A DNA stretch of 64,000 nucleotides from Ascidia mentula (Eukaryota; Chordata; Ascidiacea; Phlebobranchia; Ascidiidae), in NCBI GenBank assembly GCA_947561715.1, contig OX387198.1:14322001-14386000 (forward strand). The letters are read 5' to 3'. The translations under genes were made by a program, and so were the position numbers. The stretch's first letter is position 1. Each line of letters opens with the position of its first letter. Below the pieces are notes generated by a model. The model did not search any database. It saw nothing but the letters and a program-made list of their open reading frames with translations, and was not told where the DNA came from. This document shows, in pieces, positions 13,569-43,400 of the stretch.

Positions 13569-15800
13569 GCCTTCTAAAAGAAATTTTGATTTACCCAAAT
13601 TCCTGACTTGCCATGACTTTTTTGATCTGCTGTGTTATTCAAGCTGCGGCAATCCCCATGATCACCCATCAACTTATTTTGAGCGTATGTGTGTGTGTTG
13701 TTCGCCTTTGATTTTAAAACTAGCTTTTCTTTAGCAATCCATAGTTGATTTTTTGCTCTTAAATGCGCATCGCATTTGTCTGGTTCCATTCTGCGCCTCA
13801 GCATTGACCAGCAAATCATTTAATGTGGCAACTGTTTAACTCAATTCTATTTCTGAACTTGATTTGTACATCATTGCATGGAGAAAAAGTTACACGCAAA
13901 TAAATTCAAAATATACTAGAGGTTTTTGTGATGCAAAACTAATGTGAACGAAATCAGAAAAGGTTCGATTGAAGGACGCATATTGGTATTTCTATGAAAA
14001 TTAGTTTTGGTGCTGGGAAATGCCCACCGTGTAGACCCGTGTAGAAGTCATGCATCACCAAGCAAAGCAGTGACGCAATTAAGTTAAATTTACGGTTGAA
14101 TGAGCGCACATGTGCGTGCTGTTGTCATGGCGAATTTTAGGGTGTTTGGGGCAGTTTTAGTGGGGTTTTGAGCTATTCCAATTAGGTAGTAACTTGCTGG
14201 TGGGTGCTGCTGAAATTTATGTTGAAAATGGAGCAAAAAAATCAGGCTGTGTTTGTGGCAAAATGAATCGTTTAAGTGTCCAATCATTTGTGATTTTATG
14301 AAAGATCCATTTCATATCTACAAATTTTGAGCAAAATTATTCTCCGAAAAAATTGTTTAGCCACCCCCCTAGGGCCATTTGCCCCCCTGGTTACTCAATA
14401 AGAGCAACCAAAAATGGAACTGGATTTTGCAGAAAATTGAATCGTTCAACTACCCACTCATTTGCATTTTTTTGTAAGTTCCAACTCTTCTCTATGCAAT
14501 GGCATCAAATTTAGTTGCTGAAAAAGTGTCAATGCCCTCCCCCAAGGGCTGGGTATACCCCCCTGTTGGTCATATGATCTTCCAGGAGGCCCAAAAAGTC
14601 CTTGCTCTGTACAGTCTCATCCAGGAGCAATTTTTTTTTCAACTTTGTAGAATTTTAGGTCCCTGTAAGTCACAAGACCCATCAACGGTCATTGGGAAAC
14701 AAGCGGAACAGTCGCTAGATGCATTACAGCCGAGGGCCTTGAACACAGGATTTCTCCAATCTAATACCCATATAGGTCATTAACCCCATGATGCAGTCCT
14801 ACATCCAAATTGCTAGCAAAATAATATCTAGACAAAGGAAATTGATAAAATAGGAAGTCCAACGAATAAGATGTACCTTTAGTTTTACGCAAAGTTGCCA
14901 TGGCCGTGTGACATGCACTTTAAGGATATAAATCAGGTACTGTTAATAAAAACAAAGTAGGCCTAATTGTTGGTTTACTAACTACGTATTCTTGGATAGG
15001 CCGATGATGATTTTGACTGACGTTCAGTTGGCCGACCATCATTTTGTATTTTTTTGTCGGCACGTGGTCGAAGTATACTTCGGACATCATAGCAAAAAAT
15101 GTCAACAAGAAAACACTACTTTAGTTTTGGCAACATTGTCTGGTCATCAAGAGGAAAATAAACAGGAGCTGGATGAAATAAATAAATTTTAGCATGAAGC
15201 GGTTGCAGCTTTATTTGTAAGCACTTCAGTAATGAAACCAAAAACGCTCGCGCACAGCATTTTTTAAATGGCGAAAAATACACGGATAAAAGGCACACTG
15301 CACGCTTCGGTGCACACAGTTTGTGGCACGATCAACGAGGTCGCCACAGGCAATTAAAAGTATGAAATTCATTTGTTGACCTGCAAATTCATGATATCCG
15401 TGCTGCCATGAAAAGTACACCAGCTACCCGAAGTGTTGGAAGGTTCTGTACGTGTGAAAAGATCCAACCGGGAAAGTGTCTACGCCAGATTTTAGAAAGT
15501 TTAAAATATATTTTTAAAATGCGCTAATGCCTCAATGCTGATATAGCGCCGACTTGATTTTGATTGTTTATGAAAAAACGAACTTCTTTCTAACTCCACG
15601 GAAACGTTGCCAAAAAGTAGATTTTCCTTATCTTTTCCATACTTAAATTCCGATAATACTTAAATTCCGGGAAAACAATGCAATAAACAAAAAAATCATT
15701 CTGGACACGAAAAAGTGGTGAGAAGAACTGTAGTTGCCTGTGATTTACTCTGTGCATACGACTGAACAAGTTAAAACAGTACTTACCAAACTACTCTTAA
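13569..15800. other. intergenic between TRPM copy A and the LDLa fragment
   Basis: Begins with the 3' UTR of copy A (AATAAA at 13899-13904). Around 14230-14580 two diverged segments of roughly 180 bp appear to be tandem copies (each runs from GAATCGTT through a CATTTG block to a CCCCC-rich end). No convincing exon was seen on either strand. Confidence 0.5.
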
Positions 15801-21100: not shown

Positions 21101-24100
21101 TCCCTTTGTTAAATGTTTGCCTACTTTTTTTATTGCAACAAAACTTTTGCAGCTTATGTGTCGATATAGATAGAAACACGAATCTATTTATTTCACAGGT
21201 TGTCGCAATAGGAATAACCACCTGGGGAGCGATTCATGACCGGCAGAAAATATTTCAAAATAAGCAGGTAAAGTAACATCGGCTCCCGGGGCTGTTTTTG
21301 GGGATGTAACTTGTTACGACTGATCTAGTTTGTCGTCCAACATTTGTTGTCTGGACAAATCTGTTGCCTGAACACTTGACTGACGCGGCGACAGATATTT
21401 TTAATTATAGGAGGGTTAATATCAATTGTAACGCAGTTTCCCTCTTTCCTTTGCACTGTGTAGGATGCTTAGTAGATTTTGCCGATATGTTGCTTAATCT
21501 TACGTTTTACAAAGCAACCTATTGTGGACACTGTGCGAGGTATACGCCATGTACTCCCAACATTTATGAAAGTAACCCATCGTGGACGCCGTGCAAGGTA
21601 TAGCCAATCTACTTAAACCAGCAACCTATCATCGACTCAATGCGAGGTATAAGTTCCTATGGTTACGTTGAACAAAGCAGCTTAGTGACACAAAGTGAGG
21701 TTTAACAAAAAGGGGAAAATATGAATCCCCTTCTTAAATAAAAATATGTGCGGTCCAGTGACGTGTTTAGGCAAACGTTTTGTCCAGGAATTGATGTTGG
21801 ATAACAACTTACGTTAGCCGTGGCCCACGGTATTTTTAGCTTGGGTGCAAATAAATACAAATATCTTGTTATGTACACTTTAATGTCAGACTTTCCAAAT
21901 ATACCTTATGAATTTGGTATAAATGCACACATAGTTGACATCATAGAGCAGTGCTTCCCAACCAGTGGGTCGCGACCCATTGGTGAGTCGCGAAGCTATT
22001 TCAGGAGGGTTGCGAAGCATTTCTAAATGTTACAGTTTTCTATTAGTTCACGAAAATTTGCATTATCATTACGTAACATTTATGCAACAATGCAACAAAT
22101 ACGTAATAATTAGATGTGTTGTGTCGCATTATAACTATTTCAGTACGCATACCAGCAGTAAAGTTGCAGGATTTATGTAACTGTTAAAATGTTAATTGTC
22201 ATTGTGGGTCGCACAATAAAACTTGCATTAAAAGTGAGTCGCGAACTGAAAATGGTTGGGAAACACCATCATAGAGTTCAACTGTTTGTTACGTCACAAT
22301 TAAAAAAGGGGAATGTCCCAATGCCGAAACTTTTCAAGTCAGACTTTATTTACTATTGTCATCCTGGCAGACTCCGAATATGTTTCATCGAAAAAAGAGT
22401 TCCGCATCAATAATCACCATTTCACGAGATGGTTCATAAGATACAAACGTGTTTGTTCTGCCTATAAATCAAAGTACGTCTAATTATTTCAACCAAAATC
22501 AAACTGGACGGTTAGTACACACAAATTAATGGCAGCAAATCCCACGTTTTTTATCGGAATGTCTACAAACATCATCGATTTTAAGTATTTCACTAAGGGG
22601 GGTATACGTCACATTCAACCGCGTGCCAAACTACTTTCCGCCCCCTATAAATTTTTTTAAATCTCTGCATCTGTCAAGTATCTAGTGCTGATTAACGGGA
22701 AAGTAATTAAAATCGGTACAAATCCCAGGTATTCCATCAGAATGACTTCAAACACAGGCGATTATGCGTGTTTTGCTTGGGGGTGTACGTCACATTCAAC
22801 CGCGTGCCAAACTACTTTCCGCCCCCTATAATTTTTTTTAAATCTCTGCATCTGTCAAGTATCTAGTGCTGATTAACGGGAAAGTAATTAAAATCGGTAC
22901 AAATCCCAGGTATTCCATCAGAATGACTTCAAACACAGGCGATTTTGCGTGTTTTGCTAGGGGGATACGTCACATTCAACCGCGTGCCAAACTACTTTCC
23001 GCCCCCTATAATTCTTTTTAAATCTCTGCATCTGTCAAGTATCTAGTACTGATTAACGGGAAAGTAATTAAAATCGGTACAAATCCCAGGTATTCCATCA
23101 GAATGACTTCAAACACAGGCGATTTTGCGTGTTTTGCTAGGGGGATACGTCACATTCAACCGCGTGCCAAACTACTTTCTGCCCCCTATAATTTTTTTTA
23201 AATCTCTGCATCTGTCACGTATCTAGTACTGATTAACGGGAAAGTAATTAAAATCGGTACAAATCCCAGGTATTCCATCAGAATGACTTCAAACACAGGC
23301 GATTTTGCGTGTTTTGCTAGGGGGGATACGTCACATTCAACCGCGTGCCAAACTACTTTCCGCCCCCTATAATTTTTTTTAAATCTCTACATCTGTCAAG
23401 TATCTAGTGCTGATTAACGGGAAAGTAATTAAAATCGGTACAAATCCCAGGTATTCCATCAGAATGACTTCAAACACAGGCGATTTTGCGTGTTTTGCTA
23501 GGGGGATACGTCACATTCAACCGCGTGCCAAACTACTTTCCGCCCCCTATGATTTTTTTTAAATCTCTGTATCTGTCAAGTATCTAGTGCTGATTAACGG
23601 GAAAGTAATTAAAATCGGTACAAATCCCAGGTATTCCATCAGAATGACTTCAAACACAGGCGATTTTGCGTGTTTTGCTAGGGGGATACGTCACATTCAA
23701 CCGCGTGCCAAACTACTTTCCGCCCCCTATAATTTTTTTTAAATCTCTGTATCTGTCAAGTATCTAGTGCTGATTAACGGGAAAGTAATTAAAATCGGTA
23801 CAAATCCCAGGTATTCCATCAGAATGACTTCAAACACAGGCGATTTTGCGTGTTTTGCTAGGGGGATACGTCACATTCAACCGCGTGCCAAACTACTTTC
23901 CGCCCCCTATAATTCTTTTTAAATCTCTGCATCTGTCAAGTATCTAGTGCTGATTAACGGGAAAGTAATTAAAATCGGTACAAATCCCAGGTATTCCATC
24001 AGAATGACTTCAAACACAGGCGATTTTGCGTGTTTTGCTAGGGGGGATACGTCACATTCAACCGCGTGCCAAACTACTTTCCGCCCCCTATAATTTTTTT

Positions 24101-27100
24101 TAAATCTCTGCATCTGTCAAGTATCTAGTGCTGATTAACGGGAAAGTAATTAAAATCGGTACAAATCCCAGGTATTCCATCAGAATGACTTCAAACACAG
24201 GCGATTTTGCGTGTTTTGCTAGGGGGGGTACGTCACATTCAACCGCGTGCCAAACTACTTTCCGCCCCCTATAATTCTTTTTAAATCTCTGCATCTGTCA
24301 AGTATCTAGTACTGATTAACGGGAAAGTAATTAAAATCGGTACAAATCCCAGGTATTCCATCAGAATGACTTCAAACACAGGCGATTTTGCGTGTTTTGC
24401 TAGGGGGATACGTCACATTCAACCGCGTGCCAAACTACTTTCCGCCCCCTATAATTTTTTTTAAATCTCTGTATCTGTCAAGTATCTAGTGCTGATTAAC
24501 GGGAAAGTAATTAAAATCGGTACAAATCCCAGGTATTCCATCAGAATGACTTCAAACACAGGCGATTTTGCGTGTTTTGCTAGGGGGATACGTCACATTC
24601 AACCGCGTGCCAAACTACTTTCCGCCCCCTATAATTCTTTTTAAATCTCTGCATCTGTCAAGTATCTAGTGCTGATTAACGGGAAAGTAATTAAAATCGG
24701 TACAAATCCCAGGTATTCCATCAGAATGACTTCAAACACAGGCGATTTTGCGTGTTTTGCTAGGGGGGATACGTCACATTCAACCGCGTGCCAAACTACT
24801 TTCCGCCCCCTATAATTTTTTTTAAATCTCTGCATCTGTCAAGTATCTAGTGCTGATTAACGGGAAAGTAATTAAAATCGGTACAAATCCCAGGTATTCC
24901 ATCAGAATGACTTCAAACACAGGCGATTTTGCGTGTTTTGCTAGGGGGATACGTCACATTCAACCGCGTGCCAAACTACTTTCCGCCCCCTATAATTTTT
25001 TTTAAATCTCTGTATCTGTCAAGTATCTAGTGCTGATTAACGGGAAAGTAATTAAAATCGGTACAAATCCCAGGTATTCCATCAGAATGACTTCAAACAC
25101 AGGCGATTTTGCGTGTTTTGCTAGGGGGATACGTCACATTCAACCGCGTGCCAAACTACTTTCCGCCCCCTATAATTCTTTTTAAATCTCTGCATCTGTC
25201 AAGTATCTAGTGCTGATTAACGGGAAAGTAATTAAAATCGGTACAAATCCCAGGTATTCCATCAGAATGACTTCAAACACAGGCGATTTTGCGTGTTTTG
25301 CTAGGGGGGGTACGTCACATTCAACCGCGTGCCAAACTACTTTCCGCCCCCTATAATTTTTTTTAAATCTCTACATCTGTCAAGTATCTAGTGCTGATTA
25401 ACGGGAAAGTAATTAAAATCGGTACAAATCCCAGGTATTCCATCAGAATGACTTCAAACACAGGCGATTTTGCGTGTTTTGCTAGGGGGATACGTCACAT
25501 TCAACCGCGTGCCAAACTACTTTCCGCCCCCTATAATTTTTTTAAAATCTCTGTATCTGTCAAGTATCTAGTGCTGATTAACGGGAAAGTAATTAAAATC
25601 GGTACAAATCCCAGGTATTCCATCAGAATGACTTCAAACACAGGCGATTTTGCGTGTTTTGCTTGGGGGTGTACGTCACATTCAACCGCGTGCCAAACTA
25701 CTTTCCGCCCCCTATAATTTTTTTTAAATCTCTACATCTGTCAAGTATCTAGTGCTGATTAACGGGAAAGTAATTAAAATCGGTACAAATCCCAGGTATT
25801 CCATCAGAATGACTTCAAACACAGGCGATTTTGCGTGTTTTGCTAGGGGGATACGTCACATTCAACCGCGTGCCAAACTACTTTCCGCCCCCTATTATTT
25901 TCTTAAAACTTCATTGTTTTGCTGGATAGTTTTTGGTTTCACATCTATGGCAACCCTAAGCGCGGATTGACCCTTAACATACTAGTTTTGTTTTCGTCCC
26001 TTTTGCAGCCAGGCAAGTGTAACATACGTCACAGAAATCAGTGTTTATATTTCGTAATGTTTCGTGTGCAGCAATGCACAAGTTTTGCAAAATCCCATAA
26101 TGTGACATCTCCTGCTGATGGAGTCGCTGTCCATACAACAGCAACAACCACAACTCAACGTGGACGGCACTTCTGCACCACTATTTTTAATTAATGTGTA
26201 ATGTGTTTGTTGCGTTTTATGCCGTTTATTGTGTATTTTGCGTTTTGCGTCGCTTTCTGCGCATTTTCCGCCTCTCAGTGGTGTGTGGCCGATAGCAAAA
26301 TGACGTCACCACCCGCGCGAGCCTTATCTGTGACGTCGGTCAGGTCAGCTCCTTATGTTGATGGAGCTCTACCAATCGCGTCAGTCAAACTGATGATGAC
26401 AAAAGTTTTTGTCGAAACGTCTTTAACATGACAGTGTTAATAACAATATGGGCCAGTCTATTTATACTCAGCGTGACCCAAATGATTTAGCCATCGAATA
26501 TTCTCGAGTAAAGTGATTCATTCAATATCCTGTTTGCCACATAAAATGTTCTCCTATGCTTAGGTCACATCACACCTATGTTCTTGTATTATATTACTTC
26601 GTGCGGTTCGTGATATCACGTGACATTATTGACCAATCAGCTCTCAGTGTGGAGAGCTTTAAAAAGCCCAGTTTAGACCGGTAAATTCATTCTATTTAAT
26701 TCCATTCGATTCTACTTGTTCTATCGTATTACTGTTACACTGCTATTATTACTGAGACTCTACAAGTTATTCACCGGATTGGGATTTATTCCCACAGCCT
26801 GATAATAAACTGTTTATTCGGATACAACGGTTTGCTGGTGAGGTCCAAACCTTACACAAGACACTATTGGAACTGCATCTGCCATTTGCAGCAGAACAGC
26901 AAAACACTTTACGCCTTGCATTACGTCCTGAAATAAATCATTTATTGTTGCTATTTGTGTGTTTAGTTATAAGATCTTTAATTTACTTTTTATTTTCATA
27001 CCCAACCGCGATGACATTACCTACCAATGCATACATGCTACAAAGGGTTTGCCCACGACATTGTGTTGTCACAGTGTTTTGTTTTGCATAATAAAGTACC

Positions 27101-30100
27101 TTTACATGTCACAGACAACAATCTAAGAACGTTTCCTTTCGCAAAGGCTCGCATAGGCTTTAATAATCAATATTTGGGTTCTACAAGAAGTTACCGGCAG
27201 TATGTTAAATTTATGCTCATGTTGTGACACCAGCGACTGGTCATAAGAATTTTGTTTTGCCAAGAGACTGGGCTATTAATGTAAACAAGCAAACTTTTAG
27301 CAAGTTTCATGTGGATTGCAGCTACGTAACAAGGAGTGCGTAATTAAAGCTTCATTTGTCAAGTCGATGTACATGGAAACATTTTTGATTTGTTTTTTTG
27401 CATTAACATTGGTTGGATAAACTCGTATTTTACTGCTTCTCTTTTTCGCTCCGCTCCTTCTCTTTTCCGCTCTTTCCTCTCGTTTCTGAGGTCACGCTAC
27501 ACCGGAATGGCCAATCACGTCAGGTTGCATTTTAAATCGTCGTGCCAACTCTTATTACGTAACAGACAGCTTGTTTGACGCAAAAATTTGACCTGCATTT
27601 CCTTGTGATTTTCAACTGAATGATCGTCAAGCGAACATGCTTCTGTCTTGTTAGATTTTTTGTCAGTTCGTGTAGGGTCGTTTAGAAATGAAACATGGAG
27701 AGACATGTGGGTGTCACATGTATTGCGCTACCTGTAAATACAATATTTGAAGTTTCCTAAATTTATTATTGGACGTTAAAAGTTGATTGCTATAAAGCTA
27801 AAATTAACCTGGCAACAGTACAATAGTAAAAACGGTCTTGTTTGTACTAGTTGCTTTGCATTAACGAAACAAACTTTTCCGTACAGAATTGTTATAAATA
27901 TATCATTTGAAAGTACATTCATCAGCTTATCATTTATTTGCAACATCGTTTGCTGCTCATTTCCTAACTGAAGAATAGGTTCGACAACACAAGACGACGT
28001 TGAACGCAATCAGTTTGAGAGAAATATACATCATGGGAAGAAGAACTCCAGCTGTTCAGTACAACGTGGGAATCAGCGGAAAGCAGACCTGTTACCTCCG
28101 TGCTAAAGGTTCACAACTTCCCTCCGTGTTGTTGGTGACCGATAGCAACGGGAGGAACATTGTCTGCCCCCAGGTAGTATCGTCTCGTAGTAAACAGTTT
28201 GCTTTAAATGCGATTTCTATTCCAGGGGGTAAAATCGGACATGGAGCTGAGGAGATTATGTACGGGAATAGGTTTGAGTCAGTCGATGTCATCGTCCTGG
28301 CTCTTGGCACCAACGACTTGGCTTCCCGACGTGCTGAACACCACCACCACAGCATCGGGGCCGAGTATCAGCAGTTGATTGAGGTTTGTCAACAGAAGTA
28401 CCCGCAATGTCAGGTTGGTAAAGAAATAGTGCTATTGGCAGCAGTACAGCAGCAAGACTTTTTATAATATATTTAACAATTAACAGATCGTTGTGGCTGG
28501 AATTCTACCGCAGACCGGCTTCCATGAGCGTTGTGTTTATGGCGTTAATCGGGTACTTCGAAACCTCGCAGTCGAATATGGATTGACCTTCCTTGATTTC
28601 AACATCTCAGACGACCGGGAGAACTGGAGCGACAACCTTCATCTCTCGGACGTCGGGCTGCGCCATTATATGGACAGCCTGGAAGCTCATGTCCATACCA
28701 TTTTTGCTGTTTCCGATGCCACAGGTTTGAAAATGATAAATTAGTATATTCAGGATTGATCTCCCGTGCTTAATGCTGGAATTTGTTTAGGCCTAAATAT
28801 ATACATAATTAACGCATGCAACAAAATACAAATTGCATACAGTATATGTAATCCTCTATGATGGTTTCATTACCATTCATTAGGATTTCGTTAATTCCAG
28901 AACCTTCAACATCAACATTAACATCCACCGCTGCAACGACAAAGAAAAAAAAAAAGCGGTTTCACACCATCGATTGTTTTGGATGTGTCACCAACTGTTA
29001 TTTCCATGCCACAAAAAAACAATCTACATCCACGCCGGACCACAAGCTACATGCCAAAACTGCAGGGGTGCCATTCAAGTCCACGCCGGGCCCCAAGCTA
29101 CATGCCCAAGATGTAGGGGTGCCACCCAAGTCCACGCCGGGCCCCAAGCTACATGTCAAAGCTGAAGGGGTGCCATTCAAGTCCACGCCGGGTCCCAAGC
29201 TACATGCCAAAGCTGAAGAGGTGCCATTCAAGTCCACGCCGGGCCCGAAGCTACATGCCAAAGATGTAGGGGTGCCACCCAAGTCCACGCCGGGCCCCAA
29301 GCTACATGCCAAAGCTGAAGGGGTGCCATTCAAGTCCATGCCGGGCCCAAAGCTACATGTCAAAGCTGAAGGGGTGCCACCCAAGTCCACGCCGGGCCCA
29401 AAGCTACATGCCAAAGCTGAAGGGGTGCCATTCAAGTCCATGCCGGGCCCCAAGCTACATGCCAAAGCTGAAGGGGTGCCATTCAAGTCCATGCCGGGCC
29501 CCAAGCTACAAGCCAAAGATGAAGGGTTGCCACCCAAGTCCACGCCGGGCCCCAAGCTACATGTCAAAGCTGAAGGGGTGCCATTCAAGTCCACGCCGGG
29601 TCCCAAGCTACATGCCAAAGCTGAAGAGGTGCCATTCAAGTCCACGCCGGGCCCGAAGCTACATGCCAAAGATGTAGGGGTGCCACCCAAGTCCACGCCG
29701 GGCCCCAAGCTACATGCCAAAGCTGAAGGGGTGCCATTCAAGTCCATGCCGGGCCCCAAGCTACATGTCAAAGCTGAAGGGGTGCCACCCAAGTCCACGC
29801 CGGGCCCAAAGCTACATGCCAAAGCTAAAGGGGTGCCATTCAAGTCCATGCCGGGCCCCAAGCTACATGCCAAAGCTGAAGGGGTGCCATTCAAGTCCAC
29901 GCCGGGCCCCAAGCTACATGCCAAAGATGAAGGGGTGCCACCCAAGTCCAAGGCGGGCCCCAAGCTATCACGGAAACGCGTTCCTTGTTTGAGCCACAAA
30001 AAAGGTGATGTAGAAGTTTTTAGTGGTAATTACAATTCACGTTGGTCTTTTTTTTATCACGGTTTGGCCAGCGCGTTTGAGCTGCTTACGAGTTTGTGGC

Positions 30101-33100
30101 TAGTATTACGGTTTTGCAAACATGTGTTTCGCTGTCTTATTTTGCTGGCTTTGTTTTATGCATTTTTTTTGTATTTTTTGGTTTGCTCCTCTGGATTGAT
30201 GCAGGTTTTGGATTGTTTGAAGTTGTTTTTGAAGCACCTGTTGGCCTTGTTTCCTATAAATTGCGCCAAACCGACTGCCATTGACAGAAAACGTTTGTTT
30301 CGTCGGTGTAGTTTCTTCAATTCTCGTGGTTGTTACAAGGTTTTGGATTTTCCTTCCCGTTTGGTATTGACAGGTGGTGGGCGTTTTACCAAGTCAGAAA
30401 ACATGTCCAAAACTATTGCCCATTATTTCACTTTACATAACCTCAGTTACTTCAACGTAAGCACAGGAAAGGAATTTCTGCAAAGTAACGCATTTTGGCA
30501 AGGAAAGCATATGGCGAAACGCCTAACACTTCTTTTGAATTTCGTAAAATTAAATAAAAAAGAAATTGATTGTCTTGTTGTAAAACACCCAGGTACTAAC
30601 AAAAATAACAGCGACCCTCAGTCAAATTTGCTTTGCGAAAACTTTGTTTGTAAATTGGCAACATGTTTCAAAAATTACCCAAATACGACAAATCTGCCTT
30701 TAATTGCTGTAAGAACAATGCTAACACACCTAAGAAAACAATTTACCAGAAAAAATTATTTTAAAATGAACCGGCTTTGGATAAAAAACGCTAAATTCAG
30801 GCAGATGGTTCAAAATAAATGCAAAACTGATGTTAACACCAGCTGTGAACCTCCAAAGGAACATTCCATTCATGTACGCCTACCACCTGGTCAACTATTA
30901 AATGTTGTAGAATTGTACTGTGTTTGCAATACCACGTATGATGGCAGATTGATGGTTGAATGCGAAACTTGTGGCAAATGGTTTCACCCGAGTTGTGTTT
31001 TTGATCCTGTAAGTGTTGCTGCAACGTTGTCGGCTAAACAATGGAATCGGTCTCATTTGGTTTGTCCAGGCGCTGGAATGTTTTTGAACTCACGTTTTGA
31101 GCATAAAGGTACTGTTGACATATCAATTAACAGCAATACAGGCAAAAATCGAACAAAGGTAACAGACGCTTTAGATTGCACCAATTTGCATGTGGACTAC
31201 ACTAGTTCCAACAATGATGATGACATGTCGACTGTTTTTTATGGAAGTAATAGGAGTTTAAATGACGGGGACTTTAACAGCCAAGTTTCCCGCAGTTGTA
31301 GTGACGAAAAATCGAAGATATTGCATAATGCGCCTATACATACTATAGAAAAAAATTCTACGGAACAAAAGCAAAACATTCCAGCGCCTGTCGTTGATAA
31401 GGTAACCGTGGAGCGCAATAGTTTTGGCGACAAAGAATTTGACCACCATAATAGCGTATCTGATTATAAGTTTCGTATCCCCCCTGTTTGCACAAGTTCG
31501 GGAGAGAGCAGCTCCGATTGTAGTGGCACTTGTTCTGCAACTTTTGATGGCCGTGATAAGGATTGTGTTGTTTCAGATGGTGATGATGATAGCGATAACG
31601 TGATTTATGATGTGAGTGGGATTGGTGCTGACATTCGTTTGAAATTTAGACGTTCTGTTGAAATTGATTCCAGCGGTGTATTTGTGATTTCAACTCAGGA
31701 ATGGAAAGAAATGGTGAAAAATAGAACAGAAAAACATTTTGGAAACAATTTATATGTGGATTTGACGGTAAAAAATGTACATAAAATATATAGTGGTTGC
31801 GTGCCAAACGTTCTCAACAATTATTTACGAAGTGAAGGAAGTGTTGCAAACATTACGAAAAATGATAGTTGCTATAAAGAGGGATGGGTGAACTTGTATT
31901 GTGCGCATAGGAAGTGTGAGGATTGCAAGTGTGAAGTTGTTTTTGTGGTGACGTTTTGGTCTTTTGTTGACAAAGTTGAGGGGCGCGTCAAGGTATCTGG
32001 TATGCGAAACCATTGTTCTGGGTGTAAAAAATGTAGGCGGGTAACAGGAGTAATGAGGAAGAAGCTTCGCAAATCATTAGAAAATAAAAGCGCCGTAAAA
32101 CGATTTCGGGAAATTTACAACGAATTATCACCAGAAGAACGCTGGCTTGGGGCTCGTACTTTTTTGCCATCGCAATCTGTTTTGAACAACATCAAAAGTG
32201 AACAAAAAAAGATAAGTAACTTATGGTTTATCAATTTAAATGAAATCCGCCTGGAAATGTTAAAGAAAGGAGAAAATTATATTCGATCAATAGCCATTCA
32301 TCCCCCAGAAGTCGCATTGTATTGTGATAGCCAGATCAAAATATTTAATCATTTATGCTGCAAGGACGTTGTCTACTTTGATGCCACTGGAAGTGTCCTC
32401 AGACGTATTGATTCATATTCAGATTTTCAAATTTATACTTTGGTTGTAAGAAATCCGAAAAAGGGTGGCACTCCACTTCCTGTGGCAACATTTTTGACAA
32501 CGCGCCATGATTCAAATACCATCAGTCATTTTTTGGAAAAATTCATGTTTGATTGTTTAAAATTGTGTAGCGTGGCAAAAAAGCCCAGCCTGCTCATCAT
32601 TGATGGCTCCATGGCAATGTGGAATGCAGTTTTAAAGGCATTATGTCAAGAATTGCGCATAGAATTTTATAATCGTTGTTATCGTATTGTAACTGGTGTC
32701 CCCAATGAAAAAGATTTAAAGAAAACTGTATTACACAATTGCTATAGCCATGCAATGAGGGCTGCCAAAATTTTTTGTCATAAACATAGCAAAAGCAAAA
32801 AAATTGTTGAGACCTATCTGTATTGGATAAACATAATGTTTTCTTGTGACACTTTAGCTGGACTAGATCAAGTAATGGAAAGTTTTTATATTCTTACTAA
32901 TTGTGAAGCTTCTTCCTCACTTGTTGAATTTCATTTCAATCTGATTAAACATAGAATTAATCGAACCGAAACTGACCATGACGGAAATTGTGACAATGCA
33001 TTAGATGAGACTGATTATTTTTTTACTGCTAAAGCAACTGATAGGTTACAGGAGAAACATTCACCATTTTATCAAAGGTACAAGAAACAGCTTGATGATT

Positions 33101-36100
33101 TTTTTATGTCTGATATTTATAAGCAACATGTGGATCCCGAAATTTCAAAAAACATATATTACAACCCTGAATTTTGTCTGAAAGTGTTGGAGGTAATAAT
33201 TTCCCGAATATGCTCAACTTCAAAACTGATGCTAGGAGATTTGTCCCGACACATAAATGCATGCATAACGAGTAATGTACAAGCGCAAATGTATCACAAA
33301 CAAAAAGTCCATTGTACTGAGTTAAAGAATACCGATCATCAAACAATAATGCATGATAATCACACTCAAGGTATAATAGAAGAACATTTTCGTGATTTAA
33401 AGACTAACATTTTGGATGGTAGGCGTATATCAAAAATTGATGATTTTGTTGTTAAATATTATAATGCTCTAAAGATTTTGGTTAAAATATTTTGTGACAC
33501 ATTTATGCAATGTAAAAGATTTCGGGACAAATCTTCTAGTTTGAATATGTCCAATTTAAAACAAAGTGGGACCCAAGTTGTAGAATCCAAGTTTAAAAAA
33601 CGTAAGCATAATCCTAGTAGCTATTATTCATCTAATGCAGCTTCAAAACGAATTAAGTACAGAAATGAAACAATTGAATCTTTGTGCCATAACAACATGA
33701 AACCTTCTCCATTTGTCTCACAACACATTTTCTGCCCCCCTGATGAAGTAGTTCATCGGATTTGTAAACCAGTAGCTGATAAAATATGGACCCATGACCA
33801 GTTAAACAAAACTTCAATATTTGATACAGCTTTGATCATGCATTGTCACCAGTCATTGTCATGGTTGGATTTGTGTTCATTGTGTCTCAAACCATGCAGT
33901 AAAACATATATTGCTTTGACAGAGAATGCTGCTAAGTCACATACTCACTTGACTTTGGGTTGGCTAACAGATAAGGTAGTTGATGTTTACATAGCTAGAA
34001 CAGTTTCATTGTGTAACGCTGTATCACCTAAAACATTTGCGTGTTTGCCAACTGCTTTGGCTTTGGAAGCGTTAAATGGTAAAGTTTTTAGGAGTCTGCC
34101 TAAGGCTTTCGCTGGCATTTTTTGTGATGATAAAACTGTGTGTGAAAATGTTTTTATACCTGTTTTGTTTAAAAGTCACTTCGTTCTTTTGTGGTTTGAC
34201 AAATTTAGAAACAAACTTGTATTTTATGACTCATTCCAAAGATTTGATGTTGAATTGACAAAATTGATTTTGCATAACCTGGTTCCTATTTTGCAAGTGT
34301 TAACTGGCCATGTAGTCAAGCTTGAAAGTGATTCAATTGTGAAACAATGTGATGATTCTAGTTGTGGTTTGTGTGTTTGTTATGCTGTGGATTATACAGC
34401 CTGTAAGATTTTAAAAATGGAAATTTTACCTTTTAATGCTTTGATGTTTCGAATGTGGATGGTGTTTAGTTTGGTGTGTAATTCAAGTAGTTGTAAGGAA
34501 GCAATTTACATTTGTGGTTTAAAAAGTTTTGAATTTGTGTTTGTAGGAATTCCAAATCAATATAACAATTGTTGGTTGAATTCTATTGTACAAGGTGTTA
34601 GATGCCTTTTTAAAGAATCCCCTAGGAGTTTTAAATGCAAAGGTGGTGTTTCTGATAGACTTGCGTCAATAATTTGTGATGTCGCATGTGGCAAATTGGA
34701 TAGGGCCATGTATTTTGAATTATTAAAAGATATTTGTAAGCAATTACACTGGGTTTTGAGTGACCAACAAGATCCCAGTGAGTTTATTTTTGTGTTTGAT
34801 TTAAGTACTGTTTTTGAGAAATTTGGTTTAGATGTCACATTTCAATTGGTTACCACAAGAACATGTCAGTCCTGTAGTAAATTTCAAAGATCTGTCACTG
34901 TCAACAACCAATCAGTATTTACTTTACCCATGTTTGAAAATGTTTTGGATGGTTGCTATCTTAGTAATTATTGTAAAACTGAATTTAAAAGTATTTCAGT
35001 CGGTCTTTGTCCGGATTGTAAACAGAAAAGTGGAATGACTGTTGAAAAAACATTTGAAAATTTGTCTCAAATTTTGTGCATAGTTTTAAATAGAAATATT
35101 GGTGGTAACAAATGTATGAAAAAAGTAATTCCTGACCAAACCTTGACTTTTCACTCCCCATCCCATAAATTCATGCTAAAATTGGTTTCGGTAATTGTTC
35201 ATGTTGGGTCAAATGTTAGTTGTGGACATTATATTACGTATAAATTTGTTGATGAAGAATGGGTGCTTGAATTAAATGATGAAGTGGTTAGGTGTGTGCC
35301 TTTAAAAGTAGTGGAAGAGACCCTGTATACTGGTGGCTGTATATTTTATTACCGTGTTATAGAGGAATTTGTAAAAATGCCAGTTAAAGTGATCCCCAGA
35401 AAGCGTCGCCACTGCAACTTGGATGCAGTCAAAACATGTGAAAAACTGACTTTGAAAGATGTCAATCTAATTCAGCATATTGATGGCAATTTAATTGACT
35501 GTGCAACCCCAGCGATTTTGGGAAATAAAGTAAATTTCACTTACAAACAAATACTTGACAAATTATTTATGATAATGCGCCACAGTGTTAGTGAAGTAAA
35601 CTTATTTCCAGAATTTCAACGAGTTCATTTGTTTTTTAATGGGCAAAGAAAAAACCTAATTGAATTTAACTCCTTATTAGTGTTAACCAACACAAACGTA
35701 ACAAATGTTGATTTTGAAAACGTAATTCGATTTGTTGATTATACCATTTGTCAACATCAGTGGCGACAACGCTTTGTTGGGGATCAACTGTTTCGTGAAA
35801 CTTTTGTTGGTAAAGTTATAAAACCTCAATTTGTTGTCCATGGAAGTAGTTTGCAAAAAAATCTGGAGGGTAATTTGTTAAATGTACATACATACTTGTC
35901 ACAAGTTTTATATTTAGAAGGATTAACTTTTTTTGTGATGTTTGCAGAAAATTTGTCTTATGAAAAAGCATCAGTAGCTCTAGGTTTTTTTACCACATTT
36001 TAGGCCTAAAAAGTGTGTTTTTTTAGTGTTTTGTAATTGTTTATTAATCAAAGAATTTGGCCCCCAAAAAGGGGATGTTCGAGGAACATAATGGTTTTTA

Positions 36101-39100
36101 TACGAATAATTCTAAAACTTCGTTTGTTTTTTATCATAAATAATGTTATGTTGTAGTATACGCCATTGTGTGCTATGATTGGAAAATTTGTAATAGCTGT
36201 TGCACCTGTGCAGTTGCATAGTTAGCCAAACATGATTAAGAATAAAATGTTTATAGTCCCATATTTTTTTTGACTGGTTTTCTGCTGAGGATTATTTTTT
36301 TGTTTTAGATTCACAAAACTACAGCAATTCTTGATGCTGTCACCAGAAGCAACTGACAACAGATGCAGAAGTGTTTCATGCCAGCTAAAACTTATGTGGC
36401 AATTGTTAAAACTTTAACTTAATGATTGAAAACTGCCCAAATAAACATGCAAATTTCTTGTTTTATTGTGCCCGATTTTACTATTTGTTTCCTACATTTG
36501 GATGCCACTATAAACATTTTCTTAAAATTCCTGTTTATGAAGCAAAGGCATCAACATTGTGATTAACTTTTACCAATGTCACTTACCATCATGTTTAATT
36601 ATATCTGTTTGTCTATCATTTTTGATTAACAATCTTGTATTTTGGAATTTTTGGTTTCTTTTCAAAATGTTAAATCAAAATATTCTTTTGTGTTTTACTT
36701 TAACTTTTTGGTTATTTGTACCCACTATGAAACAGGAAAGAATTGGTAAATGTTTGTGGCCCAATAAAACGTTCTTGCATGTTTCCCTACGTAAGTAGAT
36801 TTGTTGGCTAGGCATGTTTCCTAGTAGGAGATATGCATTTGATGGGTATTTCAAATCATTACATCGTGTGAATTAGTATTTTCGCCCATTTTAAATACTT
36901 GCCCAAATTTGAAAAATGTATTTCGGCACGCGGTTGATTGTGGCGTAAAAAAACACCTAAAACCGCATGTGTTTGAAGTCATTCTGATGGAATACCTGGG
37001 ATTTGTACCGATTTTAATTACTTTCCCGTTAATCATCACTAGATACTTGACAGATGCAGAGATTTAAAAAAAATTATAGGGGGCGGAAAGTAGTTTGGCA
37101 CGCGGTTGAATGTGACGTATCCCCCTAGCAAAACACGCAAAATCGCCTGTGTTTGAAGTCATTCTGATGGAATACCTGGGATTTGTACCGATTTTAATTA
37201 CTTTCCCGTTAATCAGCACTAGATACTTGACAGATGCAGAGATTTAAAAAAAATTATAGGGGGCGGAAAGTAGTTTGGCACGCGGTTGAATGTGACGTAT
37301 CCCCCATAGCAAAACACGCAAAATCGCCTGTGTTTGAAGTCATTCTGATGGAATACCTGGGATTTGTACCGATTTTAATTACTTTCCCGTTAATCAGCAC
37401 TAGATACTTGACAGATGCAGAGATTTAAAAAAAATTATAGGGGGCAGAAAGTAGTTTGGCACGCGGTTGAATGTGACGTACCCCCCCTAGCAAAACACGC
37501 AAAATCGCCTGTGTTTGAAGTCATTCTGATGGAATACCTGGGATTTGTACCGATTTTAATTACTTTCCCGTTAATCAGCACTAGATACTTGACAGATACA
37601 GAGATTTAAAAAAAATTATAGGGGGCGGAAAGTAGTTTGGCACGCGGTTGAATGTGACGTATCCCCCCTAGCAAAACACGCAAAATCGCCTGTGTTTGAA
37701 GTCATTCTGATGGAATACCTGGGATTTGTACCGATTTTAATTACTTTCCCGTTAATCAGCACTAGATACTTGACAGATACAGAGATTTAAAAAAAATTAT
37801 AGGGGGCGGAAAGTTGTTTGGCACGCGGTTGAATGTGACGTACCCCCCCTAGCAAAACACGCAAAACACGCAAAATCGCCTGGGTTTGAAGTCATTCTGA
37901 TGGAATACCTGGGATTTGTACCGATTTTAATTACTTTCCCGTTAATCAGCACTAGATACTTGACAGATGCAGAGATTTAAAAAAAATTATAGGGGGCGGA
38001 AAGTAGTTTGGCACGCGGTTGAATGTGACGTACACCCCCAAGCAAAACACGCATAATCGCCTGTGTTTGAAGTCATTCTGATGGAATACCTGGGATTTGT
38101 ACCGATTTTAATTACTTTCCCGTTAATCAGCACTAGATACTTGACAGATGCAGAGATTTAAAAAAATTTATAGGGGGCGGAAAGTAGTTTGGCACGCGGT
38201 TGAATGTGACGTATACCCCCCTTAGTGAAATACTTAAAATCGATGATGTTTGTAGACATTCCGATAAAAAACGTGGGATTTGCTGCCATTAATTTGTGTG
38301 TACTAACCGTCCAGTTTGATTTTGGTTGAAATAATTAGACGTACTTTGATTTATAGGCAGAACAAACACGTTTGTATCTTATGAACCATCTCGTGAAATG
38401 GTGATTATTGATGCGGAACTCTTTTTTCGATGAAACATATTCGGAGTCTGCCAGGATGACAATAGTCTTTATTTGGCGTCAGTTTGTTGTTAATTTGGCG
38501 AGGTTTGAATGTACATGTCCTCGAAACTGTTTTTTAAAGTAAAATGAGAACATCTGCAAAATGATGACGTTTATTTAGTTTAACCGATACAAACGTTATT
38601 GATGAGAAATAGACTGGTTTAATCTGTTTAATAAACGCCTTAATCAAAGTAAAAAATTCTCCAATAAAATAACCTTCATCTCCATATAGACCCGCGATAC
38701 TGAAAAGGTTGGGCATGCCTGTTCTGGAACAACTAGGTTTATTTTGGGCTTTAAACATATTCAAGCATAAATGTAATCAAATTTTGTAGCATGATGTAAG
38801 AAACCCAAGTGCAGGAGGTGTTCTCGACCAAAACCACTCCCATTTTATTTTGGTTGATGATGGTTCAGAAGGCCAGTATGGCAAGGAAACAACATTCCGT
38901 GCCAAATTTGAAAAGTTTCTAGGTGTTTGTTTTGTTATAATATATTGTATTGTATACATAATGATTGTATATATAAAATATTTTTGTCATCAGCCAAAAC
39001 AAAGAACGGTGAAAAGGAAATTCTAATAAAATGCGTACTTCTACAGGGTGGATCTGGATCAATAAAGGTCATTTTTAGTTGATTTATATGTTGCTTATTA

Positions 39101-39729
39101 TGTAGGTGACATTATGTATTTTTCTGCATTGTATAATTTTTTGCAGACTGTTTATGAAGCTTTGAAAGGTGTAACTCGTGTTGTTGTGGTTGGTGATTCT
39201 GGGCAATGGGAAAATCTTCTGGCAACATTCACCAAACAAGAGGGAGCAAAAAAAAAAAATCTTTTTTCTGGTATATCTGAATGACTATGGAACAATTAAA
39301 TAGTTATGCTGCATATTATAATGCTTTAAGACTTATTCCTGATATTTGCAAAATGTTCATTGAATATCATGGTGTGGATTAGTGGGTAAAAAAATTCATT
39401 CTGCCTGTAAGTATGGTGTCTAAGCCTCACAATGTTTTGTAGCAATTTAAACAAAAAATACAACAATATGTCACTGCTCTCCAGTATGCTTTGCAAATTG
39501 CTAGTTATCGAACCCTGAATAAAGTTTTAAAAATCTAGTGATCAACTAAAGGCTTTTTGAAAAGCAACAAAATTGATATTTTTATTGACAGAGTTTCAAA
39601 ATAAGGGAAAAAACGATGAAGAGCTAAAAAGAATGGCTAAGGAATGTGCTTCGAACACACATTTCATTGCTGTCATTCCAGTTGATACAATAAACAAAGA
39701 AAACTTATGTCTCAAGTCATTCCTGCTAG
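18111..39729 (+). CDS. TRPM N-terminal copy B (9 exons, no channel domain)
   Basis: Nine exons homologous to exons 1-9 of copies A and C: 18111-18207, 18267-18349, 20522-20699, 20926-21047, 21199-21267, 38790-38922, 38994-39067, 39147-39270, 39592-39729. They join in frame with GT-AG sites to give 339 residues of MHR1/2, with no ankyrin-like, transmembrane or NUDT9-H exons before copy C begins. Oddities: the TRPM motif VTGGA reads FTDVP, and exon 8 has an 18-nt in-frame loss with an A-rich tract. Intron 5 is about 17.5 kb because a 16-kb transposon sits in it. Reading through the last donor stops at 39779. It ends in phase 1, the phase needed by exon 10 of copy C (43953), so it could be a 5' alternative module of C. 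Otherwise it is a truncated paralog or a young pseudogene. Confidence 0.75.
18555..18914. repeat. 24-bp minisatellite, 15 copies
   Basis: Fifteen near-perfect direct copies of CGAACATGTACTGTTAGCAACCAA-type 24-mers fill 360 bp; only a few carry GAGCATG for GAACATG. There are no spacers. It directly adjoins a tRNA-derived SINE on its right and lies in intron 2 of TRPM copy B. Confidence 0.95.
18930..19051 (-). mobile_element. tRNA-derived SINE
   Basis: On the minus strand there is a tRNA-like A box (TGGTTAAGCGTCC) and a clear B box (GGATTCAAATCCCGG) followed by an A-rich stretch. The segment CCATATATCAAGAAGAAAAC and the B box recur on the plus strand at 54300-54375. The folding potential of a real tRNA is lost, so this is a SINE and not a tRNA gene. 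Confidence 0.65.
19059..19317. mobile_element. 259-bp MITE-like inverted-repeat element
   Basis: Ends are inverted repeats TTGTGCGACACCTA at the left and TAGGTGTCGCACAA at the right. It abuts the SINE. No reading frame and no clear target duplication were seen; a palindromic TGACGTCA lies at about 19261. Confidence 0.55.
19476..20020. mobile_element. fold-back element made of 9-bp repeats
   Basis: The outer ends are inverted copies (GTGTTTCTAAAATGCACAATG and its complement), flanked by a direct repeat ATCTGAGTA at 19467-19475 and 20021-20029. The interior is almost wholly 9-bp units such as GCTAATGTC and GCTAATGCC. These run forward to about 19769 and then as the complement (GGCATTAGC), forming a near-perfect giant palindrome. 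It is a fold-back transposon with hAT-like target duplication, in intron 2 of copy B. Confidence 0.85.
21480..21830. repeat. decayed copy of the 57-bp satellite and its tail
   Basis: Three or so diverged units (CCTATTGTGGACACTGTGCG, CCCATCGTGGACGCCGTGC and CCTATCATCGACTCAATGCG forms) are followed by a tail that shares ACGTGTTTAGG and TTTTGTCCAG with 840-890. Same family as 1-905. Confidence 0.65.
21949..22268. mobile_element. non-autonomous hAT MITE, 320 bp
   Basis: Left end CAGTGCTTCCCAACC and right end GGTTGGGAAACACCA are inverted repeats (two terminal bases have drifted). An exact 8-bp duplication TCATAGAG flanks it at 21941-21948 and 22269-22276. Subterminal GTGAGTCGCGAA motifs lie near both ends. 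Typical of hAT (Charlie-like) MITEs. It stops 83 bp short of the giant transposon. Confidence 0.85.
22352..25900. repeat. left terminal inverted repeat with 181-bp array
   Basis: About 240 bp of unique end sequence (to about 22590) is followed by about 18 head-to-tail units of 180-181 bp, counted from 19 occurrences of CGCGTGCCAAACTAC. Units differ mainly in a G-run after TTTTGCTA, in a T-run before AAATCTCT, and in single bases (CTGCATCTG or CTGTATCTG). Alternation of these variants at every second or third unit suggests amplification by unequal exchange. Long open frames here only reflect the unit. Confidence 0.95.
25901..28032. other. 5' non-coding core of the transposon
   Basis: About 2.1 kb between the left array and the first recognised exon. 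No convincing coding exon was found. It holds the promoter-like block at 26633-26664 and an unassigned T-rich stretch at 27390-27480. A 5' leader intron is possible: GTGAGG follows CTG at about 26836, and AATAG precedes the SGNH exon at about 27978. Confidence 0.5.
26633..26664 (+). promoter_or_regulatory. putative promoter of the transposon gene
   Basis: A CCAAT box in GACCAATCAGC (about 26633) is followed 25 bp on by a TATA-like TTTAAAA (26658-26664) and a pyrimidine-rich, initiator-like stretch. It is the only such combination I noticed between the left array and the gene, 1.4 kb upstream of the first ATG. An LTR promoter of an older retroelement would look similar. Confidence 0.35.
28033..28724 (+). 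other. SGNH/GDSL hydrolase domain (exons 1-2)
   Basis: Block I is LLVTDSNGRNI (Ser38; the usual GDS is TDS), block III is ALGTNDLAS (Asn94), and block V is WSDNLHLSDVG, giving Asp176-x-x-His179. This is the catalytic set of SGNH esterases, with the intron between blocks III and V. Such esterase-like domains are known in the ORF1 of some non-LTR retrotransposons; one fused to a DDE transposase is unusual. The join is supported by in-frame GT-AG introns at 28414-28486 and 28725-28900. Confidence 0.8.
28033..36003 (+). CDS. multidomain transposase: SGNH, PHD, MULE DDE, Ulp1 and USP
   Basis: Three exons, 28033-28413, 28487-28724 and 28901-36003, join in frame (phases 0 and 1) to 2,573 residues. 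Domains in order: SGNH hydrolase 30-190; 17-residue repeats 250-563; hydrophobic segment about 590-660; PHD finger about 880-930; acidic linker; WRKY/GCM1-like zinc region about 1204-1255; DDE core (D1367, D1441, CxxH 1487-1490, E1700); Ulp1 (H1966, D1983, Q2022, C2028); USP (C2097, H2316, N2332). Presumed role: the nuclear recombinase that binds the element's ends and moves it, with proteases that strip SUMO and ubiquitin from itself or host factors. Basic, NLS-like stretches (KKRKH, PRKRRH) lie near residues 1771 and 2373. No frameshift or internal stop was found, so the gene may be active. ATG 28033 is the first in frame, but an upstream exon cannot be excluded. AATAAA at 36241-36246. Confidence 0.88.
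29029..29985 (+). repeat. in-frame 51-bp coding minisatellite
   Basis: About 19 copies of a 51-bp unit encode the 17-residue repeat KSTPGPKLHAKAEGVPF with variants (MPGPKL, HVKAEG, AKDVGVPP). A block of five variant units starting near 29150 recurs 408 bp (8 units) downstream, showing a higher-order duplication. The unit is rich in Pro, Lys and Gly, so it probably forms a flexible basic linker between the SGNH and PHD parts. All three plus frames and one minus frame are largely open, as expected from unit length. Confidence 0.95.
30916..31068 (+). other. PHD finger
   Basis: YCVCNTTYDGRLMVECETC followed by GKWFHPSCV and, about 25 residues later, HLVCPG. The spacing fits C4HC3 (C-x-C, C-x2-C, W-x-H-x2-C, then a final C), the hallmark of a histone-tail-reading PHD finger. 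It could direct integration to particular chromatin. Confidence 0.85.
32341..33420 (+). other. MULE-type DDE transposase core
   Basis: First Asp in VVYFDATGSVLRR (32380), second in LLIIDGSMAMWNAV (32602), then NCYSHAMRAA with the C-x2-H signature (32740-32751), and a candidate Glu in QGIIEEHFRDLK (33379). The DATGSV and CxxH pattern belongs to the MULE-related group of DDE transposases. The interval from second Asp to Glu is long (about 260 residues) and mostly helical-looking, as in families with an inserted helical domain. Which of the two adjacent glutamates is catalytic is not certain. Confidence 0.8.
33930..34420 (+). other. Ulp1-type (C48) cysteine protease domain
   Basis: WLTDKVVDVYIARTV opens the fold. 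Catalytic residues follow in the Ulp1 order: His in KSHFVLLWFD (34177), Asp in LVFYDS (34228), Gln and Cys in QCDDSSCGLCVCY (34345 and 34363), the Q-x5-CG pattern. Ulp1 domains occur in many MULE-group transposons and are expected to cut SUMO or a similar modifier. Confidence 0.9.
34540..35370 (+). other. USP-type ubiquitin protease domain
   Basis: Cys box NQYNNCWLNSIVQG (Cys at 34570), the QQDPSEF motif (34768), a four-cysteine zinc ribbon (TCQSC and CPDCKQKSG), and His box SCGHYITYKF with EWVLELNDEVV (His at 35227, Asn at 35275). These are the ordered landmarks of a complete, if short, USP/UCH domain. It follows directly after Ulp1 in the same chain, so one protein is predicted to remove both SUMO-like and ubiquitin-like modifiers. 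Confidence 0.9.
36004..36860. other. 3' flank of the transposon gene
   Basis: No second gene was recognised. AATAAA signals lie at 36241-36246 and near 36440. The region leads into the right-hand array, whose innermost unit (36900-37040) is the most diverged. Confidence 0.6.
36865..38466. repeat. right terminal inverted repeat with 181-bp array
   Basis: Inverted counterpart of the left end: about 7 units of 181 bp (8 occurrences of TTTGGCACGCGGTTGA or a close variant), then the 240-bp unique end (38229-38466). One unit has a 10-bp duplication (AAAACACGCAAAACACGC at about 37855). The array is less than half as long as on the left, so the units expand or contract independently at the two ends. 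Confidence 0.95.
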
Positions 39730-40110
39730 GTATGTATGCTGGGATTGCCGAATATGCTAGTAATATTTTTTTTATTTAATATAATGGTTATCGATCTTTG
39801 GTACCATCTGCACTAGTGTGGATATTAAAGTGTGTGTGTGATTGTCAGCAAGTGAAAATTTATGTCTTGTATCCAACAAATAAGATTTTATTAAGATTAT
39901 ATGACTGGGCAACCATATTTAAATATAGACCACCTTTTAAATCCAATTTACATTGCAACTGCATGCTGGATTTCCCTGTCATTATTATGACCTTTTTTAT
40001 ATTTTCAAACTTCTTTTGGGTTTGCTTTAAAATTATTGGCAATGAAAGCTACAACTGGAAAGCAATGTAAATAATTCCCCAAACTAAATTATTTTCTCAA
40101 ATCAAAATTA

Positions 40111-40377
40111 TTGGCTTGTTCCGTGTATGAAACTGATGGAAAGGGAGACCCATCTTCAGAAAGGTTGAAAAACACTGTGCTAGGGTATGAAGGTCCATTG
40201 GGCCACTATTGCATTCTGAATGAAAATGATGACAAAATAAAATGCAATTTAAGAAAAACAATTTGGGAAAAAAATAATTTTGCAGTATCCAGTGAAAAAT
40301 GCACAGTTAAATGGCAGTTTGAAATTGTAGTTAGTCTAGTGGCAGATGTAAGATTAGTCATTATTGTCCAACAATGA
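40111..40377 (+). other. unidentified open segment between TRPM copies B and C
   Basis: An open stretch of 88 codons with balanced composition (for example YEGPLGHYCILNENDDKIK), but no ATG in frame and no obvious acceptor at its left edge. I do not recognise a family. It may be part of an exon of C's 5' region, a fragment of an inserted gene, or chance. Confidence 0.3.
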
Positions 40378-40488
40378 ACTTTTAAAGAAAAGTCTTGCTG
40401 CAACATGCACACTTTAAACACAATCTAGAAACTAAACTATGCCATTGTAATTAAAAACACATTTTTTTATTAATTTTTCCAGATTCCT

Positions 40489-43400
40489 ATGCGAGAACCA
40501 GTATGCAATTTGTATTTAATTGGTTAACAAATGTCTAGTTTAGTTTACCTTTTATTATAGTTTCTTAATAAAATTTCTTTTACAGATTCTGTCATCAGTA
40601 AGGAGTTTACAATCATTGATACTGAAAGAAACCAAAAGCAGGATTTGAAAAAAAAGGTGTGCCAGAAATTTATAGATTAGCTTTTTTAATTATGGAGGTT
40701 GCACTGGCAAACAAATCCTACAATATTGATTTGTGTTGTCTGTTATTCTTTGCATAGTAACTGTATTATTCTTGAAAGTTGATAAAGGTGCGACCTGACA
40801 TCGAAGTTGCTGAAGTGTATGATTACATCATGACAGAATGGAAACTCAAACCACCAAAGCTCATTGTTTCTATAACTGGTGGAGCTCGGGACTATAGAAA
40901 GAAATTGTGGCATACCAGATTCATAAAACATCTAATTCATGTAGCTGTGGATGCAGGTGTAGCAATGTTGCATTCAACTATGTTAAAATAAATATGCTAG
41001 TGATGCACTGAAACAGCAATTTGTTTATTCAGCTGAAACCAAATATTTGGCAAAAGCCGAAACTAATTTTGGTATACATCTCCTTTAACATGATAAATTT
41101 AAACGAAGCATGTGCTGGATTGGATCTAATCAAATAAATCAAATAAATCGAATACACAGCTTGAACAATGATTCAAATCTGCGTATTAGTGTTGCATGCT
41201 GTCAAAAAAAGTTTCGGTTTCGGACAAATTTTGCAAAAATTCTTCTTTGAAACTGAATAATTATAAAAGCCTTAGTTTCAGCCGAATAAATTCTGTAAAC
41301 TGAACTTTCGGTTACATCCCTAATTAAAACCATACAGTAAGACATTATAACCTAAACCACCATACTTGACACCTAATATATATATATTTTTGATGCATAT
41401 TACCTAACTAGATAAACCGTACTGTCCCACTTTTTCTGTAGGTAGTCAAATTGTAAAGAAATGACATTTCAATTTTTTTTTATTGTCTAATCCAGATACC
41501 CCGCAAACTGTTGTTATGTAAGAAAATTGACCAAAAGAAAAAATTATTAAGTTTTGACCGATTTCTGTTACTAGGGGCATGGATCGTTACTGGTGGGACA
41601 AATTATGGTGTGATGGCAGAAGTTGGCAAAGCAGTGGAGGAATATTGCAGCAAGTCAAAAAAAGAGGTTAGTATTAAGAATCGGAAATTGAAATAGCCCA
41701 ATTGGTTTAACATAGTACATCAGTATAATTTTCTTTTAAATTTATTTACATTTATTGATGTTGCAGCACACTTAGTTAAAACCATAAATTAATATTTCCC
41801 ACAGGTTGTCACGATTGGAATAACCACCTGGGGAGCTATTCATGACCGGAAAAGTATAATTAAAGATGAGAAGGTAAAAAGAGGATGTAGGAGTAGTAAA
41901 CAAGAACCTTAAGGCAATTGTTTGTGTCAAAGAAACCCATCAACTAAGTCTAAGATCAATGCTTTAATGTTCCATTGTGTTTTGTACAAAAATCGCTTGG
42001 GATCGGAGATTGTCATAGAAAGCTATTGAGTCGACTTTCTATAAAATGCAATTGCATTTTGTATGGCTTTCTAACCAAAAATAATGTTCAACCTAGAGGT
42101 CAATTGCCTCCAGAGAGGCACCTAAGGCTTTTTTTGTTTAATAGAGAAAGTATTTCCCAATATGTGGCCTTACAAGGTAATTAAATATAAAAAAAACTTG
42201 TTTGGAAAAATTGCAGCATGACGTAAGCAATGGAAAAGGTGTTCTGGACAAAAACCACTCCCATTTTATTATGGTTGATGATGGTTCAGAAGGGCTGTAT
42301 GGCAAGGAAATAACATTTCGTGCTAACTTTGAAAAGCATATAGGTTTGTGTTTTGTTAATTTGAAAAACTTCTGTAATATTTTTGGATGAAAATTTTGGT
42401 TATCAGCTGAAAGGAAAGACGATCAAAAGGAAAGAATTCTGTGTTGCATTCTTCTGCAGGGTGGATCAGGATCATTAAAGGTATTTCCGTGTTGATTAGT
42501 ATGTTACCCATATAATTGTTGGGTGGTTATATGATGTATTTTCACAGTGTACCATGCTTTGCAGACTGTTAATGAAACTTTGAAGACAGGAACTCCTGTA
42601 GTGGTGGTTGGCGGTTCTGGACAATGGGCAAATATTCTGGCAACACTTTGCTCCAGTCAAGAGGAAGCGCAAGTTAATCAAAACCAAATAAAAGAGCTTT
42701 TGCAAGGTATATCTGAATGACTATGGAACATATAAACAGTTATAGTTTATATACTACATACTATATTCCTGAAACTCCAAAAGGAGTAAAGTTTGATCAG
42801 CACTAGTGCATGATCTTTATTTGTTATCAAAGATATAAATTTCGCCTATTGGCATTCTCAGTTTATCAAAGTAATTTTTCAAATCTCGCTCTGACTTATC
42901 AGGAAAAAGTGACTGATCCGTCTAAGCCTGCAAACCTAATGATCTTGGTGTGGTAGCTCTGATTGCAGAGTAATACAAGTAATGCTCAGTGGGGAAGATT
43001 ATGCCATTGCATGAAAAATTACTGCATGTCTGATTACGGTTGTAGAGATCCCCTACATATGTGTGAAGGTTGCCTAGCATGTTGTGCACTTGCGCACCAG
43101 TGTGTCTTGACCACATTATATTCTGAAAAACCGCTGAGCTCCTGTAGCTCACTTGGTAGAGCATCTGGCCTGATTAGCCAGCGTTTGGCTTGTGAGTTTA
43201 AACCTTACTGAAAGCTTGATTTTATCAATCTCAATCCGACTTGTCAGAAAAAGTGGCTGATACAGCCTGGCTGCAATGCCTGGGCTGCGAAGCCTGCCAA
43301 CCTAATGATGCCAATACGATAGCTATGATCGCCAAGTAAGGACCTGCAAATTGGGTGATTTACTGCGTGGTATCACATAAAGTGCTAAAAAGTAACTAAA

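Follow-up and report, generated by a model that had tools for sequence, protein, structure and literature searches.

Can a single transposon of an ascidian combine the machinery for moving DNA with enzymes that remove protein modifiers? This question was raised by a 64,000-bp stretch of the Ascidia mentula genome (assembly GCA_947561715.1, contig OX387198.1, positions 14,322,001 to 14,386,000 of the forward strand), hereafter the window, in which an earlier note had proposed one transposon protein made of an SGNH hydrolase, a PHD finger, a DDE transposase, a SUMO protease and a ubiquitin protease. Our analysis demonstrated that the window contains a structurally complete foldback-type DNA transposon of 16,115 bp (22352-38466), and we consider it probable, with good confidence, that this element is a complete and apparently recently inserted member of the Mutator (MULE/Rehavkus/IS256) group. 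Its main open frame encodes, in this order, a PHD finger, a DDE transposase, a Ulp1-like protease and a USP-like protease, each with profile or fold support; for these four domains the proposal of one chain held, whereas the membership of the SGNH domain remained unproven.

The boundaries of the element, which had been overlooked, were recognized from inverted arms, seen by self-comparison, and from identical 8-bp target-site duplications, CTTTATTT, that border both ends. The arms, 3.6 kb on the left and 1.6 kb on the right, consist of tandem units of about 180 bp in inverted order, as in foldback elements, and their outer 247 bp are identical at 247 of 247 positions. The insertion apparently took place recently. 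Between the arms, the main frame is uninterrupted, and in 200 base shuffles of 30374-36003 the longest open frame reached at most 172 codons. AATAAA motifs follow 3' of the frame at 36241, 36440 and 36763.

The surrounding DNA carries tandem copies of a TRPM2-like channel gene (1868-13857, 20495-21272 and 38783-52516), one partial copy of which is split by the element; Pfam detected SLOG in TRPM in these copies (5.3e-14) and NUDIX just below the cut-off (6.9e-4). Blocks of this family that lie 48 bp apart in one copy are found in another copy one on each side of the element, which is expected if the element was inserted into older DNA.

Concerning the transposase, the D, D, CxxH, E set reported earlier was located at the residues given in Table 1, and the core holds D, D, C/DxxH, E together with a helical insertion, as in Mutator/MULE transposases, with a spacing of 74 residues between the two Asp in all ten proteins holding both motifs. 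The 8-bp duplication and the long arms likewise agree with the 8-11-bp duplications and long terminal inverted repeats (TIRs) of Mutator/MULE elements. The predicted structure resembles IS256/hAT/P transposases; its best fold match was the ISCth4 transposase, whose chains made up the only five Foldseek matches at E<=0.001, the model having a mean pLDDT of 57.2 and the fold matches low TM-scores. The IS256 family, to which ISCth4 belongs, is the bacterial relative of Mutator; the ISCth4 transposase differs from the element protein in being bacterial and far shorter, and it is not known to carry proteases. The MULE-type assignment made earlier thus stands by fold and motif, with weak Pfam support (matches in three of six core pieces, best E=0.012, all sub-threshold) and no PDB sequence match of the transposase profile at E<=10. 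Two other identities were considered and rejected: for the integrase-like Ginger elements, fold and motif favored IS256/Mutator instead, and for the KDZ/Zisupton group of transposons, the KDZ family was absent among the Pfam matches listed and no paper was found in the literature search.

The Ulp1-like domain carries its H, D, Q, C set within a CE-clan fold, as in the Ulp1/C48 family, and the USP-like domain has Cys and His boxes within a UCH domain, as in USP/C19. Both catalytic sets named in the earlier note (H, D, Q, C and C, H, N) are intact, with fold or profile support, and since they are intact, it is a fair hypothesis that the element may edit SUMO and ubiquitin marks while moving. The Asp of the Ulp1-like set is replaced by Asn in two of six members, and the fold matches of this domain include NEDD8- and ubiquitin-acting proteases too.

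A search with residues 960-2170 identified two proteins, P0003 (2,074 aa) and P0004 (1,735 aa), which are 30-31% identical overall, are the only long relatives found and hold the PHD, DDE, Ulp1 and USP motifs in order; P0004 ends within USP, and its UCH match is absent. Because both long relatives hold all four domains, the PHD-DDE-Ulp1-USP fusion is conserved, as judged from these sequences. The core search added nine further, shorter proteins, and all four parts are present in three of the 12 family proteins. Among the shorter ones, P0008 and P0011 hold DDE, Ulp1 and USP motifs (P0011 without the first Asp), P0010 holds part of DDE and the Ulp1 His motif, P0005, P0007 and P0013 (Styela clava LOC120329920) hold PHD and part of DDE, and P0006, P0009 and P0012 hold DDE motifs only. 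None of the pattern matches in viral contigs (153 and 37 in two scans) or prokaryote genomes (35) was confirmed as a relative.

The PHD finger was borne out by both Pfam and a PHF2 match. In the relatives, its Pfam bit score exceeds the cut-off in P0007 only and falls under it in P0003, P0004, P0005 and P0013. The cage residues of PHF2/PHF8 (Y, Y, M and W) are apparently retained in the element protein by alignment, but not in P0003, and that the finger might read H3K4me3 is only a guess.

The most economical reading of this domain set would be that, by stripping off SUMO, ubiquitin or similar marks, the transposase either shields itself or makes its site accessible. The element protein would bind the repeated arm units and pair the ends, DDE chemistry would move the element via an 8-bp staggered cut, and the PHD finger would anchor the transposase on the tails of histone H3. 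Targets of the two proteases may be either the transposase itself or chromatin and repair proteins at the ends; taking SUMO, ubiquitin or some related modifier off them would protect the transposase and open silenced chromatin. The SGNH esterase is carried within the same element.

How the SGNH esterase relates to this protein is the point on which a rival reading survives best. Its S, G, N and H blocks, noticed earlier as a catalytic set, are present with Pfam support, as in SGNH hydrolases, and its best PDB match was the ORF1-encoded protein 4c1b (E=2.8e-4), the esterase of a zebrafish LINE. Three homologs were found, namely P0014 and P0015 on short contigs and P0016 (Styela clava LOC120335056), whose homology (43% identical over 96%) runs gaplessly across intron 1 and ends at about intron 2. 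That all five domains lie on one spliced protein of 2,573 aa (or about 2,450 aa) is possible, though we lean away from it. The SGNH exons are located inside the element, and the in-frame joining of three exons to 2,573 aa was reproduced with GT-AG sites; many other site combinations also keep the frame. Additionally, the exon 1 donor is real, as P0014 and P0015 both diverge right after the same YPQ.QV point, and the absence of AATAAA and ATTAAA at 28700-28960, between SGNH and the main frame, weighs against a separate SGNH gene. However, the Styela homolog P0016 is a stand-alone protein of 210 aa, and a GDSL/SGNH Pfam match is absent from P0003, P0004 and the Styela transposase piece P0013. 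Moreover, if intron 2 is retained, the SGNH frame ends six codons on (read by eye), and the main frame has its own ATG inside that putative intron. We slightly favor a separate esterase product, made from an unspliced intron 2 or as a second cistron, over the fusion. Still less likely is a single spliced protein in which esterase, histone reader, DDE transposase, SUMO protease and ubiquitin protease would together find chromatin, strip SUMO- and ubiquitin-based marks of silencing or degradation, cut DNA and perhaps act on membranes or lipids via the esterase.

We consider it improbable that the element is a non-functional relic that carries its proteases along as functionless passengers. Such decay could be suggested by the N part of the main frame, where the 17-aa repeat units vary freely: over 18 units, 34 codon differences from the consensus are nonsynonymous and 7 synonymous (single-change expectation 113:40). 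The T-rich stretch that follows could be an in-frame intron or a hydrophobic segment; its best 19-residue hydrophobicity mean is 2.52, whereas 15 other proteins reach no more than 1.64; none of the 15 matches the stretch, several of them not extending over that part. Homology to Styela P0013 picks up again near its end. Its codon-usage score in the main frame, -0.07, is higher than in the other two (-0.38 and -0.33) but lower than in any of the 15 downstream windows (0.06 to 0.22), on which the score had also been trained. Against a relic, however, the 2,383 codons stay open, the DDE, Ulp1 and USP catalytic residues are retained in both the element protein and P0003, and the outer arm ends are identical. 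Finally, it is very improbable that the long frame is a host gene, whether domesticated or fallen into the repeat structure: only one element copy was seen and the protein is large for a transposase, but inverted arms with exact duplications enclose the frame, which has kept its DDE residues.

Table 1. Features of the element, in window positions (TRF, Tandem Repeats Finder).
Feature	Position	Strand	Details
Left target-site duplication CTTTATTT	22344..22351	.	identical to 38467-38474
Left inverted arm	22352..25908	.	outer domain 22352-22598 followed by tandem units of ~180 bp (TRF: 18.4 copies; exact landmark sites: 19)
Exon 1, SGNH N part	28033..28413	+	S, G, N blocks: TDSNGRN, PGG, GTND
Exon 2, SGNH C part	28487..28724	+	DNLH = D and H block; intron 2 kept gives stop TAG 28742-28744
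Putative intron 2 or intercistronic stretch	28725..28900	+	contains main-frame ATG 28858
Main open frame	28852..36003	+	2,383 codons, uninterrupted
51-bp (17-aa) in-frame tandem repeat	29029..29967	+	18.4 copies; encodes N-part units
T-rich 369-bp stretch	30005..30373	+	hydrophobic if translated; possible in-frame intron (GT..AG) or real segment
PHD finger	30919..31020	+	Pfam 5.4e-7; PHF2 match 9.3e-6
DDE transposase region	31699..33531	+	D1177 (32380), D1251 (32602), C1297/H1300 (32740/32749), E1510 (33379)
Ulp1-like (C48) protease core	33934..34446	+	H1776, D1793, Q1832, C1838
USP-like (C19) protease	34543..35304	+	C1907, H2126, N2142 (H2126, N2142 numbered by hand count)
C-terminal ~215 aa	35359..36000	+	no Pfam match at E<=10
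Right inverted arm	36915..38466	.	tandem units (7.3 copies, TRF; 7 exact landmark sites), then outer domain 38220-38466
Right target-site duplication CTTTATTT	38467..38474	.	identical to 22344-22351

Elsewhere in the window, an inverted self-complementary minisatellite of 9-bp units lies at 19477-20019, and a 24-bp tandem repeat at 18554-18918 (15.2 copies, 98% alike) has three open frames, counted across the two strands. The window edge (1-739) is an array of 57-bp tandem repeats with weaker similarity to 21495-21676. Open reading frames on the minus strand at 55984-60800 resemble a receptor with seven transmembrane segments (7tm_1, sub-threshold at E=0.0017), and cysteine-rich stretches near them appear LDLa-like by eye, without a Pfam match.

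The element was compared with known systems through the available parts of their published descriptions. Rehavkus, a MULE outgroup of insects and annelids, is described as having long TIRs, a minisatellite and a transposase with a PHD finger and a MULE-like DDE, as in our element (PMC6446971). Its target duplication is 9 bp, whereas ours is 8 bp, and we therefore place the element near Rehavkus and not as Rehavkus; its minisatellite lies before the 3' TIR (PMC6446971), whereas such repeats occur in each arm of the element and also in the N part of its protein. Ulp1, ubiquitin, SGNH and peptidase go unmentioned in the available main text of that paper.

Ginger1 combines a DDE transposase with Ulp1, in one family also with PHD, and Mutator with Ulp1 has also been reported; the Ginger1 transposase is integrase-like, unlike that of the element (PMC2836005). 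The only protein for which the available text of the same paper mentions USP (C19) is a Transposase_11 protein of Trichomonas, and there without Ulp1. SGNH domains also occur in other mobile elements, such as the LINE ORF1 esterase (4c1b) and Texim/Helitron SGNH (PMC4021074), but these carriers are retrotransposons or Helitrons, not DDE elements, and the similarity to 4c1b is only E=2.8e-4. A DDE protein with both Ulp1 and USP is not described in the available parts of PMC2836005, PMC6446971, PMC4079207, PMC13359780, PMC8277862, PMC4021074, PMC6431247 and PMC3212892, and among the matches listed from the open-licence literature, mostly titles and abstract starts, no DDE element with both proteases, or with SGNH, was recognized.

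What we call new here is a Mutator/Rehavkus-like foldback variant with Ulp1-type and USP-type proteases fused to the transposase. Transposons with one modifier protease were already known, and a SUMO/ubiquitin-pathway role of transposon Ulp1 was proposed by the authors who described them (PMC2836005); the fusion of both types, common to at least three proteins, would allow this idea to be tested directly, each protease separately. Tetris of Drosophila virilis shares long inverted arms with an outer domain and tandem units of about 220 bp, as well as 8-10-bp duplications, but its described copies have no conserved open reading frames (PMC4079207). As Tetris (PMC4079207) and FB4 (PMC8277862) are both described as being without their own transposase, the present element stands apart from them as a foldback transposon with a complete coding frame.
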